Assembly: GCF_001518815.1 (NCBI RefSeq)
Contig: NZ_CP013987.1
Coordinates: 1,281,001 to 1,345,000 of the forward strand
Length of the DNA: 64,000 nucleotides
Reading direction: 5' to 3'
DNA from: Pseudomonas oryzihabitans
GTDB taxonomy: Bacteria > Pseudomonadota > Gammaproteobacteria > Pseudomonadales > Pseudomonadaceae
The position numbers and the translations under genes are program-made. Every line of letters begins with the position of its first letter. The first letter of the stretch is position 1. Below, piece by piece: positions 4,649 through 12,520 of this stretch. The notes below the pieces were generated by a model that was not told the DNA's origin, searched no databases, and was given only the letters and a program-made list of their open reading frames with translations.

Positions 4649-7600
4649 CTAGTAGACGTCCTTCAGATAGCGCTTCTGTTCGCTCATCCCGCGCACATAG
4701 TCAGCGGCTGCCTCGTCGCTGAGGTGGCCGTGGGTCGCCACCACCTGGCGCAGGGCCTGGTCCACGTCCTTGGCCATGCGGCTGGCGTCGCCGCAGACAT
4801 AGACGCGGGCGCCGTCCTGCAGCCAGCGCCAGACTTCGGCGCCGCGTTCGCGCAGCCGATCCTGCACATAGACCTTCTCGGCCTGGTCGCGGGAGAAGGC
4901 CAGGCTGAGTTCGCTCAGCAGGCCATCACGCTGGAAGGCTTCCAGCTCGTCGCGGTAGTAGAAGTCGTGGGCGGCGTGCTGTTCGCCGAAGAACAGCCAG
5001 TTGCGCCCCTGGTCGCCCCGGGCGCGGCGCTCGTGGAGAAAGCCGCGGAAGGGGGCGATGCCGGTGCCGGGGCCGATCATGATCAGCGGGACGTCGCTCT
5101 GGTCCGGCAGGCGGAAATGACGCGAGGACTGGATATGCACCTCGGTGGCGGCCTCGCCCAGGCGGTCGGCGAGAAAGCTGGAGGCCACGCCCTTGCGCTT
5201 ACCGTAGCGCACCGCCGAGACGGTGAGGTGCACCTGGCCAGCATGGGCCAGGGGGCTGGAGGCGATGGAGTAGAGGCGCGGCTGCAGGCGCTTGAGGCTG
5301 CCGAGCAACTCGCGGGCATCGTGGCGGGCGGGAAAGCGGGCCAGCACATCGGCCAGTTGCCGGCCCCAGAGCCAGCGCTTGAATTCGTCGCGGTCGTTCA
5401 GCAGGGCGCGGCAATCGTCACTGCCGCTGCGCTCGGCGATCAGCGCCAGGGTCTCGGGGTTGGGGCGGGCGATCTCGTAGTGCTCGCCCAGGGCCTGACG
5501 CAGTGACAACTCCCCGACTTTTGGCACGGCGACCGGCTGTTCGCCGTCCAGACCGGCGAGGGTGAGGATCTCCTCGACCAGCTCCGGGCAGTTGCGCGCC
5601 CTCACGCTCAAGGCGTCGCCGGCCTCGTAGGCCAGGGGCTGATCGGATTCGAACCCGCACAGCCGCACCTCCTTGTTGGATCCGGCGCTGTTGAGTCTGC
5701 GGTTGATGACCAGCCGCGCCGGGACTGGCACCGGGCGATTGGGCGTGGTCGGGGCGGTGACGGACACGCTGGTGGTATGGGGCGCCAGTTGCTCTTGCAG
5801 CCTGGCCAGCCAGGCATCGGCGCCGTCGAGACCATCGGCGTCGCAGTCCAGGCGCGGGCACAGGCGGCGAGCGCCGAGTTCGGCCAGGCGGGTGTCGAGG
5901 CGCTGGCCGTGGCCGCAGAATTGCTCGTAGGTGGAATCGCCCAGGGCCAGCACGGCGTAGTCCAGTTCGGCCAGGGAGGCGTCGAGGCGACTGAGGCCCT
6001 GCCAGAAGGCCTGGCCGTTGTCCGGCGCCTCGCCGTCGCCAAAGGTGCTGCTGACCAGCAGCAGGCGGCGGGCACCGGTCAGGCGTTCCACGGCATAGGC
6101 GGCCATGTCGTGCAGTTCCACGCTGAGACCGGCCTGGCACAGGCGGGCGACGCAGCGCTCGGCCAGGGCTTCGGCGTTGCCGGTCTGGGACGCCCAGAGC
6201 ACTACCAGATCGGCCGGCGCGGTGGGGGCCAGGGCCAGGCCGGCGGCCTGGCTTTCCGGTAGGCGGCTGAACAAGCCGGCGAGCAGGCCGTCGAGCCAGA
6301 GGCGGGTGTCGGCGGCCAGCGGCGCCTGGGCCGGCAGGCAGGGCACGCCCTGGGTCGCGCCGTCGCGCAGACCGTCCATGAAGCCTGCCAGGTAGGTGCG
6401 CTCGGCCGCGCTGAGCTGGGGCCGTACCGCGGTCGCGACCCCGGTGAGCTCGGCCAGGCGCGCCAGGGCGGGCTGGCGGCTGCTCTCGGCGACGGGCTCG
6501 TCAACCGGCAGCTGGCGGTGGGGAATGGTGGCGACGCGAGTCAGGCGCACGGCGCAGACCTTGAGCTCCGGTTGCAGCGAGAGCGGATCGACGGCGTCGC
6601 TGGTGACGGCATTGATGGCCAGGTCGCTGCCCTGGACGTCGGCCCAGTGAAAGGGCGCGAAGCAGTTGCCGGGCTGGACCCGGTCGCTAAGGGTTACCGG
6701 CAACACGGCACGGCCACGACGGGAGGTGATTTCCAGCCGGTCGCCGTCCGCCAGGCCCAGGGCTTCGGCATCCTGGGGATGTACCTCGATGAACGGGGCG
6801 GGGTTGAGGCGGTTGAGGGCGGCGATCTTGCCGGTCTTGGTCAGGGTGTGCCACTGGTGCTGCAGGCGGCCGGTATTGAGCACGAAGGGGTAGTCGGCAT
6901 CGGGCAGTTCCGCCGGCTCCAGGTGCGGGCGGGCGAAGAATTGCGCCTTGCCGCTCGGGGTGGCGAAGTTGAGGGCGGTCGGTTCGCCGGTGGCGTCCAG
7001 GCGCAGGGTCTGGCTGCGGCCATCGTTGCGATAGCGGATCGGCTGGCGCGGGTCGCTCTCTGCGCTGGGGCAGGGCCATTGCAGCGGCGTCTCGCGCAGC
7101 CGGGCATGACTGGCGCCGCGAATGTCATAGCCGGTCTGGGGGTTGTGGAATTGCCGGATCTCGTCGAACACCTCGGCGGCCGAGGCATAGCTGAAGTGCT
7201 CGCCATAACCCAGGGCGCAGGCCACGTCGGCGATGATCCGCCAGTCGGCGCGGGCCTCGCCGGGCGGGGTGACGGCCTGGGGCGCCAGGGTCAGGTTACG
7301 CTCGGAATTGATCATCACCCCGTCGGCCTCGGCCCAGAGCGCGCCGGGCAGCAGGATGTCGGCGTACGGGTTGGTCTCGGTGTCGAGAAAGGCGTCCTGG
7401 GTGATCACCAGCTCGGCGGCCTGCAGACCGCGGACGACCGTCTCGCGATTGGCCACGCTGGCCACCGGGTTGGTGCAGATGATCCAGCAGGCCTTCACCT
7501 TACCGGTGGCCAGGTCCTCGAACAGGGCGACGGTACCCTGGCCGAGGCGGGTGTGCAGGGTGCCCTCGGGGATGCCCCAGGCCCGCTCGACGAAGGTGCG

Positions 7601-8680
7601 GTCGGTAGTCGACAGCAGGCTGCGCTGGCCAGGCAGGCCGGGGCCCATGTAGCCCATCTCGCGCCCGCCCATGGCGTTGGGCTGGCCGGTGAGGGAGAAG
7701 GGGCCGCTGCCGGGGCGGCAGATCTTGCCGGTGGCCAGGTGCAGGTTGCACAGGGCGTTGGTGCTCCAGGTGCCGTGGGTGCTCTGGTTCAGGCCCATGG
7801 TCCAGAGGCTGGTCCATTCGCCGGCCTCGCCGATCCAGCGTGCCGCGGTACGGATGTCCGCCTCGGTCAGCCCGGTCCCCGCGGCCACCCGTGCCGGGGT
7901 GTAGTCGGCGAGAAAATCGGGCATGGCCGCCCAACCTTCGGTATGGGCGGCGATAAAGGCTTCGTCCAGATGGCCCTCGGCGTACAGCAGATGCAGCAGA
8001 CCGTTGAGCAACAGCAGGTCGCTGCCGGGGCGCAGTTGCAGGAAGAGATCGGCCTTCTCGGCGGTGGCGGTGCGCCGCGGATCTATCACGATCAGCTTGG
8101 CGCCGCGCTTGACCCGATCCAGTAGGCGCAGGAAGAGGATGGGATGACAGTCGGCCATGTTGGCGCCGCTGACGAGGAAGAGGTCGGCGCGGTCGAGGTC
8201 GTCGTAGGAGCCGGGCGGACCGTCGGCGCCAAGGGACAGCTTGTAGCCGGTGCCGGCACTGGCCATGCACAGTCGGGAGTTGGATTCGAGCTGGTTGGTG
8301 CCGATGAAGCCGCGGGCCAGCTTGCTCGCCAGGTACTGGGCCTCTAGCGACATCTGCCCGGACACATAGAAGGCGATGGCGTCCGGTCCGTCGCGGTCGA
8401 GGATGGCGCGCAGCCGTTCGGCGGTGGCGGCGATGGCCTGGTCCAGCCCGGTCTGCACCGGTTGGTGAGAGCGGTCATGGCGGACATAGGCCTGCGCCAT
8501 GCGCCCGCTGTCCACCAGCGCCTGGTGGCTGGTGCTGCCCTTGGTGCAGAGGCGGCCGCGATTGGCGGGGTGGTCGCGATCGCCGCTGACCTTGATGACC
8601 CGGCCGTCTTCCACCTGCATGACCATCCCGCAGCCGACGCCGCAGTAGGGGCAGACGCTCTTGATGTGGGTAGTGGCCAT
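4649..8680 (-). CDS. nasA: Assimilatory nitrate reductase fused to CysJ-like diflavin reductase
   Basis: The 1343-residue fusion reduces nitrate to nitrite in the cytoplasm. Residues 1 to about 760 form a molybdopterin oxidoreductase of the NasA/NapA type. Its [4Fe-4S] site is CPYCGVGC plus C45 (C10, C13, C17, C45), and the cysteine in NSRLCMASA is the likely Mo ligand. A segment resembling the CysJ N-terminus follows (LSAAERTYLAGFMDGLRD). From about residue 824 there is a flavodoxin domain (LVVLWASQTGNAEALAERC), then an FAD-binding domain from about 985 (RLYSIASSPL) and an NAD(P)H domain (IGPGTGIAPFRGF, near 1196) ending in YLKDVY. The fusion can pass electrons from NAD(P)H to the Mo site without a separate reductase. 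The ATG at 8680 starts MATTHIKSVCPYCGVGCGM with an AGGA site upstream. The frame is open further upstream, but that part would cover the regulatory leader. Confidence 0.95.
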   Translation of the reverse strand: MATTHIKSVCPYCGVGCGMVMQVEDGRVIKVSGDRDHPANRGRLCTKGSTSHQALVDSGRMAQAYVRHDRSHQPVQTGLDQAIAATAERLRAILDRDGPDAIAFYVSGQMSLEAQYLASKLARGFIGTNQLESNSRLCMASAGTGYKLSLGADGPPGSYDDLDRADLFLVSGANMADCHPILFLRLLDRVKRGAKLIVIDPRRTATAEKADLFLQLRPGSDLLLLNGLLHLLYAEGHLDEAFIAAHTEGWAAMPDFLADYTPARVAAGTGLTEADIRTAARWIGEAGEWTSLWTMGLNQSTHGTWSTNALCNLHLATGKICRPGSGPFSLTGQPNAMGGREMGYMGPGLPGQRSLLSTTDRTFVERAWGIPEGTLHTRLGQGTVALFEDLATGKVKACWIICTNPVASVANRETVVRGLQAAELVITQDAFLDTETNPYADILLPGALWAEADGVMINSERNLTLAPQAVTPPGEARADWRIIADVACALGYGEHFSYASAAEVFDEIRQFHNPQTGYDIRGASHARLRETPLQWPCPSAESDPRQPIRYRNDGRSQTLRLDATGEPTALNFATPSGKAQFFARPHLEPAELPDADYPFVLNTGRLQHQWHTLTKTGKIAALNRLNPAPFIEVHPQDAEALGLADGDRLEITSRRGRAVLPVTLSDRVQPGNCFAPFHWADVQGSDLAINAVTSDAVDPLSLQPELKVCAVRLTRVATIPHRQLPVDEPVAESSRQPALARLAELTGVATAVRPQLSAAERTYLAGFMDGLRDGATQGVPCLPAQAPLAADTRLWLDGLLAGLFSRLPESQAAGLALAPTAPADLVVLWASQTGNAEALAERCVARLCQAGLSVELHDMAAYAVERLTGARRLLLVSSTFGDGEAPDNGQAFWQGLSRLDASLAELDYAVLALGDSTYEQFCGHGQRLDTRLAELGARRLCPRLDCDADGLDGADAWLARLQEQLAPHTTSVSVTAPTTPNRPVPVPARLVINRRLNSAGSNKEVRLCGFESDQPLAYEAGDALSVRARNCPELVEEILTLAGLDGEQPVAVPKVGELSLRQALGEHYEIARPNPETLALIAERSGSDDCRALLNDRDEFKRWLWGRQLADVLARFPARHDARELLGSLKRLQPRLYSIASSPLAHAGQVHLTVSAVRYGKRKGVASSFLADRLGEAATEVHIQSSRHFRLPDQSDVPLIMIGPGTGIAPFRGFLHERRARGDQGRNWLFFGEQHAAHDFYYRDELEAFQRDGLLSELSLAFSRDQAEKVYVQDRLRERGAEVWRWLQDGARVYVCGDASRMAKDVDQALRQVVATHGHLSDEAAADYVRGMSEQKRYLKDVY

Positions 8681-8710: not shown

Positions 8711-8757
8711 AAAGGCGCCGGTCGCGCTCCCCGGAGGGAGGCGAACACGGCGCCTTT
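8711..8757 (-). terminator. Intrinsic terminator/attenuator in the nasA leader
   Basis: On the minus strand the arms AAAGGCGCCG and CGGCGCCTTT pair perfectly. They enclose an inner stem, CTCCC-TCCG-GGGAG, with a stable UNCG-class tetraloop. TTTTCGCTTTC follows the 3' arm as a partial U tract. The structure lies between the likely promoter and the nasA start, so it would stop transcription unless prevented. Its 5' arm overlaps the hairpin at 8753-8768. Confidence 0.8.
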
Positions 8758-8791
8758 GTCGTGAAAGGAAGCGATCGGCGTTGACCGCTCC
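8753..8791 (-). promoter_or_regulatory. Two-hairpin ANTAR-type antiterminator element, nasA leader
   Basis: On the minus strand, hairpin P1 (8791-8768) has a 9-bp stem including two G-U pairs, and the hexaloop AACGCC with A at position 1 and G at position 4, the known ANTAR signature. It is followed directly by P2 (8768-8753), CCTTT-CACGAC-AAAGG, whose hexaloop keeps G4 but has C1. The 3' arm of P2 is the first part of the terminator 5' arm, so P2 and the terminator cannot form together. This is the arrangement known for NasR/NasT antitermination. The regulator gene is not in the window. Confidence 0.65.
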
Positions 8792-8941
8792 ATGCCGGGG
8801 ATTTAGCAAGGCTCGCGCCAGCTCGGTCCGGCGCGCTCGGGGAGCGCATCACTGCTGGTCTGGCGGGGTGCCAGCGGCGCTGATCGAGGTCGCTTCCCTC
8901 TCGGTCGAGGTGCGCCGTGACGGGGCAGGCAGGCCTTGCCC

Positions 8942-8958
8942 TGCACCGTTGTGGTTCC
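8942..8958. promoter_or_regulatory. Possible NtrC binding site
   Basis: TGCACCGTTGTGGTTCC matches the 17-bp enterobacterial NtrC consensus (TGCACYAWWWTGGTGCA) at 13 positions, with the left half-site complete. It lies about 115-130 bp upstream of the predicted nirB transcription start, a usual enhancer distance. It could serve both divergent genes. It was judged by eye and not scored against the genome background. Confidence 0.45.
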
Positions 8959-9047
8959 GGCTGGCACGCATCCGGAACGTGGGCGGCAGTCCCCTTTGCC
9001 GGCTACAGGCCGCGCCAGCTGCGGATATATAGGCCATCAGGCGAAAC

Positions 9048-9063
9048 TGGCACAGCCGATGCA
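9048..9063 (+). promoter_or_regulatory. Sigma54 (-24/-12) promoter of nirBD
   Basis: TGGCACAGCCGATGCA has the invariant GG and GC separated by ten bases and a full TGGCAC -24 element. The transcript would start near 9074, just before the first hairpin of the leader. Sigma54 with NtrC is the known control of nitrate assimilation in this group, and rpoN lies in this window. Confidence 0.65.
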
Positions 9064-9075
9064 AAAGCCTTGGCA

Positions 9076-9131
9076 GACCCGTCCATTCGGGTCGCCCGGT
9101 CGATCAACGGCGATCGACAGCCACTGCAGGC
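9076..9131 (+). promoter_or_regulatory. Two-hairpin ANTAR-type antiterminator element, nirB leader
   Basis: P1 (9099-9118) is GTCGATC-AACGGC-GATCGAC, a perfect 7-bp stem with a hexaloop that has A1 and G4. P2 follows after one base (9120-9131), GCC-ACTGCA-GGC, a short stem whose hexaloop also has A1 and G4. An extra 6-bp hairpin with hexaloop TCCATT (9076-9093) lies at the predicted 5' end of the RNA. The P1 loop differs by one base from the nasA leader loop. P2 does not overlap the terminator here, so antitermination would need a further rearrangement. Confidence 0.65.
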
Positions 9132-9177
9132 GACGGGCACGGAGCAGCGCCTGGCGCTCCTCCCTACCAGAACAGGC

Positions 9178-9219
9178 AAAGGCGCCTGAGACCGCAAGGT
9201 TTCAGGCGCCTTTTTATTT
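9178..9219 (+). terminator. Intrinsic terminator/attenuator in the nirB leader
   Basis: A 16-bp stem with one G-U pair (AAAGGCGCCTGAGACC with GGTTTCAGGCGCCTTT) is closed by a GCAA (GNRA) tetraloop and followed by TTTTTATTT. It lies 43 bases before the nirB start. A complete terminator between promoter and gene is expected only if readthrough is regulated. Confidence 0.9.
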
Positions 9220-9262: not shown

Positions 9263-11812
9263 ATGAACAGCATCGTGACCCGCAAAGAACGCCTGATCGT
9301 CGTCGGCAACGGCATGGTCGGCCATCACCTCGTCGAGCAGCTGCTGGCGGCCGGCGCCTTGGACCACTACGAGATCCACGTCTTCGGCGAAGAACGTCAG
9401 CGCGCCTATGATCGGGTACACCTCTCCGAGTACTTCGCCGGTCGCGACGCCGAATCCCTGGCCATGAGCGAAGCCGGCCTCTATGCCGTGCCCGGCCTGG
9501 TGCTGCACCTGGGCTGCGCGGTGACCGCCATCGACCGCGAGCAGCGCGAGGTACTGACGTCCGCAGGTACCTTTGGCTACGACCGCCTGGTGCTGGCCAC
9601 CGGCTCCTATCCCTTCGTGCCGCCCATCGAGGGCGCCGAAGGCGACTCGCGCCTGGTCTATCGCACCCTGGACGACCTGGACACCATCCGCCTGGCCGCC
9701 GCCAGGGCGCGCCGCGGCGTGGTGGTGGGCGGCGGCCTGCTAGGGCTAGAGGCGGCCAATGCCCTGAAGTCTCTGGGCCTGGAAGCCCATGTGGTGGAAT
9801 TCGCCCCACGGCTGATGCCGGTGCAGCTGGACGACCTGGGCGGCGCCGCCTTACGCCAGCGCATCGAAGACCTGGGCGTGGGCGTGCACCTGTCCAAGGC
9901 CACCCAGAACATCACCGCCGGCAGCGAGTACCGCTACCGCATGAACTTCGCCGGCGAGGATTTCCTCGAGACCGACCTGATCCTGTTTTCCGCCGGCATC
10001 CGGCCCCAGGACGCCCTGGCCCGCAGCTGCGGCCTGGAACTCGGCCCCCGCGGCGGGGTGGCGGTGGATAACGGCTGCCTGACCAGCGATCCCTTCATCC
10101 ACGCCATTGGCGAGTGCGCCGCCTGGAATGGCAGCGTCTTCGGCCTGGTCGCGCCGGGCTACCAGATGGCGCGCCTGGTATCCGCCACCCTCTGCCACGG
10201 CCAGGGCACGCCCTTCACCGGCGCCGACATGTCCACCAAGCTCAAGCTGCTGGGCGTGGACGTGGGCTCCATCGGTGATGCCCACGGCGCCACCCCCGGC
10301 GCGCGCAGCTATCGCTACATCGACGAAGCCAGCGCCAGCTACCGTCGCCTGGTGGTCTCCGCCGATGGTAAGCACGTCCTCGGCGCCGTGCTGGTGGGCG
10401 ACAACAGCTACTACGACACCCTGCTGCAATACGCCCAGAACGGCATCCCGCTGCCCCAGGATCCGGCCAGCCTGATCATGCCGGTGGGCGAGGGCGCCCC
10501 GACCCTGGGTGCCGACGCCTTGCCGGCCACCGCCACCCTCTGCTCCTGCCACAACGTCACCAAGGGCGCGGTCTGCGCCGCCATCGACGCCGGATGCACC
10601 GATCTCGCCGGCATCAAGAGCTGCACCAAGGCCGCCACCGGTTGCGGCGGCTGCGCGGCCCTGGTCAAGCAGGTGTTCGAGCACGAGCTGGTCGCCCGGG
10701 GCGTCGAGGTCGACAAGAGTCTCTGCGAACACTTCGCCCATACCCGCCAGGAGCTCTATCACCTGGTGCGGGTGGAAGGCATCCAGAGTTTCGACGAGCT
10801 GCTGGCGCGCCACGGCCACGGCCAGCATGGTTGCGACATCTGCAAGCCGGCGGTAGCCAACGTCCTGGCTTCCTGCTGGAACGCGCCCATCACAGCTCCG
10901 CACCTGGTGCCGCTGCAGGACACCAACGACACCTTCATGGCCAACATGCAGAAGAACGGCACCTATTCGGTGGTGCCACGCATCCCGGGCGGCGAGATCA
11001 GCCCGGAAGGCCTGATCGCCATCGGCCAGGTGGCGAAGAAATACGACCTCTACACCAAGATCACCGGCGGCCAGCGCATCGATCTCTTCGGCGCCCAGTT
11101 GCACGAGCTGCCGGACATCTGGGGCGAACTGATCGCCGCCGGCTTCGAGACCGGTCATGCCTACGGCAAGTCGACCCGCACGGTGAAGAGCTGCGTGGGC
11201 AGTACCTGGTGCCGCTACGGGGTGCAGGACAGCGTCAAGATGGCGCTGGACATCGAGCACCGCTACAAGGGCCTGCGTGCCCCGCACAAGCTCAAATTCG
11301 CGGTGAGCGGCTGCACCCGCGAATGCGCCGAGGCGCAGAGCAAGGACATCGGCGTGATCGCCACCGAGAACGGCTGGAATCTCTATGTTTGCGGCAATGG
11401 CGGCATGCGGCCGCGGCATGCCGAGCTGTTCGCCACCGACCTGGATGACGAAACCCTGATCCGCTACATCGACCGCCTGCTGATGTTCTACATCCGCACC
11501 GCCGACCGCCTGCAGCGCACCTCGGTGTGGCGCGAATCCCTGGAGGGCGGCCTCGACTATCTCAAGCAGGTGATCATCGAAGACAGCCTGGGCCTTGGCG
11601 CCGAGCTGGAAGCCCAGATGCAGCTGGTGGTGGATCGCTACGAATGCGAATGGGCCAACGCCCTGAACGATCCCGACAAGCTCAAGCGCTTCCGTACATT
11701 CGTCAACCAGCGCGGCAACGACCCGGACATTCACTTCGTCAAGGAACGTGGCCAGCGCCGACCGGCGCGTCACCACGAACTTCAGCTCATCGCCGTTACC
11801 GAGGAGGTTTGA
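9263..11812 (+). CDS. nirB: Assimilatory nitrite reductase (NADH), large subunit
   Basis: NirB with NirD reduces nitrite to ammonium in the cytoplasm. The 849-residue protein begins with an FAD-binding fold (VVGNGMVGHH, residues 14-22), followed by an NAD-binding fold (GVVVGGGLLGLEAAN, near 152). Next is a BFD-type [2Fe-2S] segment with CSCHNVTKG near 428 and TGCGGC near 458. The C-terminal half is the nitrite/sulfite reductase module: ferredoxin-like halves and the four cysteines that bind the [4Fe-4S]-siroheme centre (SCVGSTWC near 642 and SGCTRECAEA near 682). The ATG at 9263 begins MNSIVTRKERLIVVGNG and follows the leader terminator. A longer open frame upstream runs through the leader and is not coding. 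nirD follows 2 bp after the stop. Confidence 0.97.
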   Translation: MNSIVTRKERLIVVGNGMVGHHLVEQLLAAGALDHYEIHVFGEERQRAYDRVHLSEYFAGRDAESLAMSEAGLYAVPGLVLHLGCAVTAIDREQREVLTSAGTFGYDRLVLATGSYPFVPPIEGAEGDSRLVYRTLDDLDTIRLAAARARRGVVVGGGLLGLEAANALKSLGLEAHVVEFAPRLMPVQLDDLGGAALRQRIEDLGVGVHLSKATQNITAGSEYRYRMNFAGEDFLETDLILFSAGIRPQDALARSCGLELGPRGGVAVDNGCLTSDPFIHAIGECAAWNGSVFGLVAPGYQMARLVSATLCHGQGTPFTGADMSTKLKLLGVDVGSIGDAHGATPGARSYRYIDEASASYRRLVVSADGKHVLGAVLVGDNSYYDTLLQYAQNGIPLPQDPASLIMPVGEGAPTLGADALPATATLCSCHNVTKGAVCAAIDAGCTDLAGIKSCTKAATGCGGCAALVKQVFEHELVARGVEVDKSLCEHFAHTRQELYHLVRVEGIQSFDELLARHGHGQHGCDICKPAVANVLASCWNAPITAPHLVPLQDTNDTFMANMQKNGTYSVVPRIPGGEISPEGLIAIGQVAKKYDLYTKITGGQRIDLFGAQLHELPDIWGELIAAGFETGHAYGKSTRTVKSCVGSTWCRYGVQDSVKMALDIEHRYKGLRAPHKLKFAVSGCTRECAEAQSKDIGVIATENGWNLYVCGNGGMRPRHAELFATDLDDETLIRYIDRLLMFYIRTADRLQRTSVWRESLEGGLDYLKQVIIEDSLGLGAELEAQMQLVVDRYECEWANALNDPDKLKRFRTFVNQRGNDPDIHFVKERGQRRPARHHELQLIAVTEEV

Positions 11813-12181: not shown

Positions 12182-12520
12182 CCCTCACCCCAACCCTCTC
12201 CCGAAGGGAGAGGGGGCGGTACGGCGCGGCGCGGAGCTATTGGCGTAGCCTGGACAACGGCGCAGCCTTGTCTGGGAATGGCTACCGCGATGCTAGGTGA
12301 TCCCTCACCCCAACCCTCTCCCGGAGGGAGAGGGGGCGGTACGGCGTGGCGCGGAGCTATTGGCGTAGCCTGGACAACGGCGCAGCCTTGTCCGGGAATA
12401 GCTGACGCGATACCAAGTGACACTCACCCCAACCCTCTCCCGGAGAGATAGGGGGCGGTACGGAGTGGGGCGGAGCTATTCGCGTAGCCTGGACAACGGC
12501 GCAGCCTTGTCCGGGTGATC
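12182..12520. repeat. Tandem 120-bp intergenic repeat, about 2.8 copies
   Basis: Three copies start at 12182, 12302 and 12421, with periods of 120 and 119 bp. Each begins CCCTCACCCCAACC and contains CCCTCTCCC-gga-GGGAGAGGG, a perfect 9-bp hairpin in copies 1 and 2 (12194-12214 in copy 1). Each then carries a segment with TAGCCTGGACAACGGCGCAG. Copies 1 and 2 are nearly identical, and copy 3 has a damaged hairpin. The hairpins could end nirBD transcription, although no U tract follows. The remaining DNA to 12669 shows nothing else I can identify. Confidence 0.9.

Follow-up and report, generated by a model that had tools for sequence, protein, structure and literature searches.

Introduction

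According to PMC8934654 and PMC3369931, the RNA targets of ANTAR proteins are defined by two hexaloops with A at position 1 and G at position 4 (A1/G4), belonging to hairpins P1 and P2, and by a terminator that overlaps P2. The EutV RNAs of Enterococcus faecalis, as portrayed in the same papers, resemble the leader described below: both hexaloops carry A1 and G4, and P2 lies inside the terminator. EutV is activated by phosphorylation, whereas NasT is instead released by NasS. For NasT, leader binding or antitermination is reported from Paracoccus, Bradyrhizobium, Azotobacter and Pseudomonas (PMC3795266, PMC6759348, PMC5424462, PMC12830290), and published work describes, in relatives of the present system, binding of the nasA leader by NasT, release by nitrate and NasT control of nirBD with a sigma54 promoter (PMC3795266, PMC5424462, PMC12830290). 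The nasAB leader of Azotobacter vinelandii and the nasA leader of Paracoccus denitrificans, which we liken to ours by their description in PMC5424462 and PMC3795266, likewise show NasT-dependent antitermination before assimilatory nitrate genes. A further likeness is found in the pseudomonad nirBD leader (NalA), for which the review PMC12830290, citing P. putida and P. aeruginosa work, gives a sigma54 promoter, a blocking hairpin relieved by NasT and NasS as the nitrate sensor. Unlike the NalA case, the genome reported here has one leader for nasA and a second, for nirB, on the other strand of the shared intergenic region, while cobA is preceded by a leader of its own.

Because the mechanism has been published for relatives, it is not new, and only the member is new. 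What we add, on the basis of sequence comparison, is a probable reading of the Rfam family RF03032 (narK RNA) as an ANTAR leader, its apparent likeness to P11 (RF00625), and an A.C mismatch that seems common in the P2 of Pseudomonas nasA leaders. A predicted hairpin is not always a sign of activation by NasT. NasT hairpins are predicted for narK and bjgb of Bradyrhizobium, and yet both genes are up-regulated in a nasT mutant (PMC6759348); in the Paracoccus leader, mutation of the second hairpin (HII) had little effect on expression with nitrate, and mutation of HI had a severe one (PMC5424462).

We give a probability of roughly nine in ten to the reading that the nasA leader is a NasT-type ANTAR antitermination leader. 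This reading is based on observations of the present analysis, namely the layout, its conservation, the covariation of P1, the overlap of P2 with the terminator, the adjacency of NasT-like and NasS-like genes and the co-occurrence with ANTAR genes; binding by NasT, a response to nitrate, dependence on sigma54 and the position of the start site would follow the published relatives.

Organization of the nasA and nirB leaders

The stretch of Pseudomonas oryzihabitans DNA analysed here (64,000 nt; hereafter the window) lies within a 4.83-Mb one-contig genome, and in it nasA (start 8680, minus strand) and nirB (start 9263, plus strand) are divergent, sharing one intergenic region with one leader for each gene. 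In the 1343-aa product of nasA (4649..8680, minus, ATG at 8680) the molybdopterin domains of a nitrate reductase come first, and flavodoxin, FAD and NAD domains come after them; judging from these domains the protein is an assimilatory nitrate reductase to which a CysJ-like flavoprotein portion is fused. Along the minus strand, its ATG is preceded by a sigma54-type -24/-12 promoter TGGCGCGAGCCTTGCT (8820-8805), with one mismatch to the consensus TGGCACGNNNNTTGCW used for the comparison; by P1 (8789-8770), with a 7-bp stem and the hexaloop AACGCC; by P2 (8763-8746), CACGAC-AAAGGC-GCCGTG, with an A1/G4 hexaloop and an A.C mismatch at the second pair; and by an intrinsic terminator hairpin predicted by folding (8757-8710), whose 5' arm overlaps the loop and 3' arm of P2. 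P2 and the terminator are mutually exclusive because 8757-8746 is common to both. Transcription would start at about 8794.

Folding gives -8.8 kcal/mol for P1 and -35.7 kcal/mol for the terminator hairpin (z -5.4 for a 51-nt stretch), at the end of which is a short T run (TTTT). The first-pass annotation had suggested folding 8850-8681, a stretch that begins about 56 nt upstream of the probable transcription start; both P1 and the terminator are found within its minimum-energy fold (-83.8, z -4.53, with 0 of 200 shuffles as stable). In the A1/G4 register P2 is weak by itself, at -2.3 kcal/mol. Its stem consists of one closing pair, the A.C mismatch and four more pairs and, like the 7 pairs of P1, reaches the threshold of at least 3 bp for such stems. 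Further features by which a dual-hexaloop ANTAR target is recognized are present: both loops have A1 and G4 (AACGCC and AAAGGC), P2 overlaps the terminator, and the genome encodes an ANTAR protein.

The nirB leader is organized on the same plan on the plus strand, with a sigma54-type promoter TGGCACAGCCGATGCA (9048..9063) showing two mismatches to the consensus, P1 with hexaloop AACGGC (9099..9118, -9.0 kcal/mol), P2 of the form CAGGC-AAAGGC-GCCTG 54 nt after P1 (9173..9188, -8.1 kcal/mol), and a terminator overlapping P2 (9178..9220; -30.5 kcal/mol and z -8.3 for a 50-nt stretch), followed by the gene for the nitrite reductase large subunit (nirB, 9263..11812). Our model R1 matched this leader at 9099-9132, covering P1 only and not recovering P2, and among the Rfam matches to it none was above cut-off. 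In another genus of the family, the locus L191 (G061:C1:347297-347440) has a P2 and terminator that by eye are almost identical to those of the window's nirB leader.

With layout thresholds that were chosen after the leaders had been inspected, dinucleotide shuffling reproduced the full layout (an A1/G4 hairpin, a second A1/G4 hairpin and an overlapping terminator) 3 times in 5000 for the nasA leader and once in 5000 for the nirB leader, and a both-strand scan of the window with these thresholds found it at the nasA and nirB leaders only (at nasA twice, with two choices of P1). The promoter is predicted from its position: the nasA leader has GG-N10-GC at 8819-8806 (minus), at the right distance before the leader, and matches to the promoter consensus with up to two mismatches number 12 in the window against 13.3 expected, which is not above chance. 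Possible NtrC sites were also sought between the divergent promoters, and two matches with two mismatches to the consensus were seen (8911-8927 and 8942-8958); because such matches occur across the whole window (72 against 56 expected), we claim no NtrC site.

Relation to the Rfam families narK RNA and P11

A search with the Rfam ANTAR model had also been suggested in the first-pass annotation. No family of that name was among the matches; the nasA leader instead matched RF03032, narK RNA, at 8747..8819 (minus) with 59.3 bits against a gathering cut-off of 43.2, and is a member of that family by score. The model contains P1 as its only helix, leaves the P2 stretch unpaired and lacks the terminator: in its printed consensus, positions 1-15 read GGCaCAgcucUUGCU, P1 follows as the sole helix, and then comes the unpaired ACGACAAAGACGUCGC, which corresponds to P2. 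Positions 1-15 look like a sigma54 -24/-12 promoter, fitting its consensus, and we infer that this first part of the family is probably promoter DNA that is not transcribed. A candidate function can be offered for narK RNA, in which a sigma54 promoter is followed by an ANTAR leader, on the same plan as P11. The family reportedly stems from one earlier published study; our literature search, which was limited and did not extend to the family's likely source paper, found no paper on narK RNA or RF03032.

The consensus of P11 has the same order of parts as that of RF03032. Both window leaders score below the P11 cut-off of 70 bits (24 bits for the nasA leader at 8714-8832, minus; 27.6 bits for the nirB leader at 9036-9210, plus). 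When P2 was located by its loop pattern and stem, GGAC/GTCC or AGGC/GCCT was found around AAAGGC in 30 of 30 cases, comprising 29 loci fetched with P11 and the window's nirB leader; the automatic choice of P1 and promoter was poor in a few of these rows (L172-L175). The two families, narK RNA and P11, seem to share one promoter-plus-antiterminator plan, and since neither carries a clan in the Rfam tables used here, annotators see them as unconnected.

P11 is presumably the P. aeruginosa nirB leader and reportedly acts on C. elegans. Rfam files it under genes and calls it a Pseudomonas sRNA, and the resemblance of both window leaders to it raises the alternative that the leader RNA left after termination acts chiefly in trans, as a small RNA like P11, control of nasA being secondary. 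We think this very improbable, because the P11 scores are far under the cut-off and the layout stands directly in front of nitrate genes.

Candidate regulator, predicted regulon and co-occurrence

The genome contains one ANTAR match, which lies in a REC+ANTAR protein sequence-related to 6wsh (E 1.8e-18), to AmiR 1qo0 (1.4e-8) and to the 'nitrate regulatory protein' 4akk, which we take to be NasR. Its gene comes directly after an NMT1-like gene; by this relationship and neighbourhood the protein appears NasT-like, and the adjoining NMT1-like gene is taken as NasS. The structure 6wsh is that of EutV according to PMC8934654.

Four leaders of one plan are found in this genome, before nasA and nirB in the window and before narK and cobA elsewhere. 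The narK leader (3106859-3106927 of the genome) is an RF03032 match. The cobA leader was matched by R1 at 2972242-2972285 (38.3 bits, E 1.8e-9), although cobA was absent from the R1 seed, and by P11 at 2972193-2972305 with 56.6 bits, below the P11 cut-off (locus L192, G000:C1:2971800-2979800); among the 23 R1 matches listed in the genome, 20 (including L154-L157) had 24.8 bits or less. With its own sigma54-type promoter and ANTAR layout, the cobA leader adds a predicted target of NasT that lies beyond the window. The four leaders fit one pathway of nitrate entry, nitrate reduction, nitrite reduction and siroheme, and we expect a single NasT to act on the nirB, narK and cobA leaders as well as on that of nasA, so that in one genome a four-leader NasT regulon is predicted, covering nitrate uptake, nitrate reductase, nitrite reductase and a siroheme enzyme.

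From the published relatives, the nasA leader would operate as follows. Under nitrogen limitation RNA polymerase would start at the sigma54 promoter, and without nitrate the nascent RNA would fold P1 and then the terminator, so that transcription stops before nasA. On binding nitrate or nitrite, NasS would release NasT, whose ANTAR domains would hold the A1/G4 hexaloops of P1 and P2; P2 would then tie up the terminator's 5' arm, and polymerase would continue into nasA.

The presence of narK RNA tracks that of ANTAR genes. Among 119 genomes of the family sample, 83 have both, none has narK RNA only, 6 have ANTAR only and 30 have neither (for 10 of these 30 the narK-RNA status was inferred from handle ranges), that is, ANTAR was found in 83 of 83 genomes with narK RNA and in 6 of 36 others. 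Among 390 genomes of the order sample, where 22 carry narK RNA and 182 an ANTAR match, the corresponding counts are 22 of 22 and 160 of 368. Because the genomes are related, these counts are not independent and their p-values (1.5e-22 and 2.5e-8, respectively) are inflated. In a larger family sample narK RNA occurs in 318 of 398 genomes.

Conservation of the leader in related genomes

Alignment A1 was built from 92 parsed loci with 69 distinct sequences, consisting of 67 RF03032 loci and 25 of 26 Pseudomonas nasA loci. The 67 comprise all 39 order-sample matches (2 of them also in the host-genome search) and 29 new family-sample matches out of the 30 best-scoring, minus L045, which was left out because its match lay away from the expected place. 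Outside the parse is L126, the 26th Pseudomonas nasA leader, to which the P2 regular expression could not be fitted and which by eye has GGC/GCC in P2; L142, with a P2 of the A.C form, stands outside the 26. The P1 anchors of L001, L025 and L031 were placed by hand.

The nasA loci came from 80 loci listed for the window's nasA protein, the window's own genome being possibly absent from the list; the nearest named relatives among them are P. oryzihabitans strains, with best segments up to 94% identical. In a first detection on these 80 loci the layout was seen in 27 and not in 53, the latter including the Pseudomonas loci L119, L126 and L142; the P1 drawn for L118 was spurious. Among the 53 loci with titles other than Pseudomonas, this detection found no layout in 50 and found it in 3 (a Burkholderia, a Pectobacterium and a Paracidovorax), which have GGAC-AA[CT]GGC-GTCC before nasA. 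Model R1 matched close upstream of nasA in 27 of 27 Pseudomonas-titled loci (results being given for 41 of the 80 loci), most of these 27 being R1 seed rows or identical to them, with the exception of L126, at only 25.6 bits, and L142.

A1 and G4 are present in the P1 loop of all 92 parsed loci and in the P2 loop of 90, the exceptions L009 and L031 having G at position 1; because the locating step favoured A1/G4 for P1, and the regular expression for P2 required G4 but accepted either A or G at position 1, these counts are not independent, and only that of A1 in P2 is partly so. In 91 of 92 parsed relatives a TGG-N10-GC element precedes the P1 stem by 10-35 nt, in 71 of them by 15-18 nt, against a mean of 2.1 and a maximum of 8 of 92 in 200 shuffles.

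Across the 69 distinct sequences, P1 and the A1/G4 form of P2 together have 84.5% of cells paired (shuffled mean 70.1) and a covariation score of 0.399 against 0.142 shuffled, a score reached in 0 of 500 shuffles. Most of this joint signal comes from P1, with 92.4% of cells paired as compared with 75.6% for P2 and with changes on both sides at 6 of its 7 pairs; RNAalifold on the same alignment predicted P1 and not P2. For P2 alone, 48 distinct hairpins including nirB- and cobA-type leaders gave 0.185 against 0.073 shuffled (0 of 500), with the third pair from the outside (column 3 with 16) being C-G in 20, G-C in 15 and unpaired in 10. The inner pairs of P2 hardly vary and so speak neither way, and covariation backs P2 mainly via the other leader types.

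It might still be argued that this is ordinary attenuation by a leader peptide or a constitutive terminator, working without an ANTAR protein and with the hexaloops incidental, as a reading frame that runs through the leader begins with the ATG at 8793 and the terminator is strong by itself. Such an account is scarcely credible beside the A1/G4 loops of the relatives, even with the locating step that favoured them, the covariation of P1, the four leaders of one plan in a single genome and the tracking of ANTAR genes, all of which agree with NasT-type antitermination.

Register of P2 and its A.C mismatch

In the first-pass annotation P2 was drawn as CCTTT-CACGAC-AAAGG (8768-8753, minus), so that its loop broke the A1/G4 rule at position 1 and might be recognized differently. 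This register can pair, and energy cannot choose between the two because both are about equally stable here (-1.9 kcal/mol for CCTTT-CACGAC-AAAGG against -2.3 for the A1/G4 form). In the 69 distinct relatives, however, it has 42.0% of cells paired, when the shuffled mean is 42.9% and 474 of 500 shuffles do at least as well. All 5 of its pairs are formed in 2 of 92 parsed loci, the window (L001) and L072, a P. oryzihabitans strain identical to the window over P1-P2, and thus in 1 of 69 distinct sequences; 4 pairs are formed in 8 of 69. That it is nevertheless the working P2, with NasT reading a loop CACGAC without A1, deserves next to no credence: the isolated 44-mer spanning P1 and P2 includes it when folded to minimum energy, which speaks for it, and shuffle-level pairing and violation of a rule that the other register keeps speak against it. 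The drawing of P2 is thereby corrected, and the conserved loop AAAGGC, having A at 1 and G at 4, gives no support to a differing recognition. The remaining proposals of that annotation, an ANTAR-type antitermination leader before nasA, a P1 whose hexaloop AACGCC obeys A1/G4 and competition between the terminator and a second hairpin, are upheld by the layout, the conservation and the RF03032 match.

Counted from the loop, the second P2 pair is A.C in every one of the 25 Pseudomonas nasA leaders that were parsed and G-C in L126. At the same pair the 67 RF03032 loci have A-U in 63 and A.C in 4 (L001, L028, L029 and L030); tblastn places nasA directly downstream of these 4, some of which coincide or are identical with loci of the nasA set. 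The mismatch does not mark all nasA leaders, because L022, a more distant one, has A-U. Tentatively, the A.C mismatch may be a deliberate weakening by which one NasT pool switches the nitrate genes in order, although we consider this unlikely. Equally doubtful is the order that would result, with nirB and cobA, whose P2 is strong, turned on at low NasT and nasA only at high NasT. The P2 energies are -8.1 kcal/mol for nirB, -5.1 for cobA, -2.3 for nasA and -2.2 for narK, and the order cannot come from the mismatch alone because the P2 of the narK leader is equally weak in the same genome.

Other features of the window

A tandem repeat at 12182-12515 (120-base unit, 2.8 copies, 92% matches) gave equally spaced weak matches to R1. 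A tRNA-Sec gene is present at 2725-2816 on the plus strand (RF01852, 83.1 bits), directly following a long ORF (430-2715) that by eye resembles the selenocysteine elongation factor SelB.
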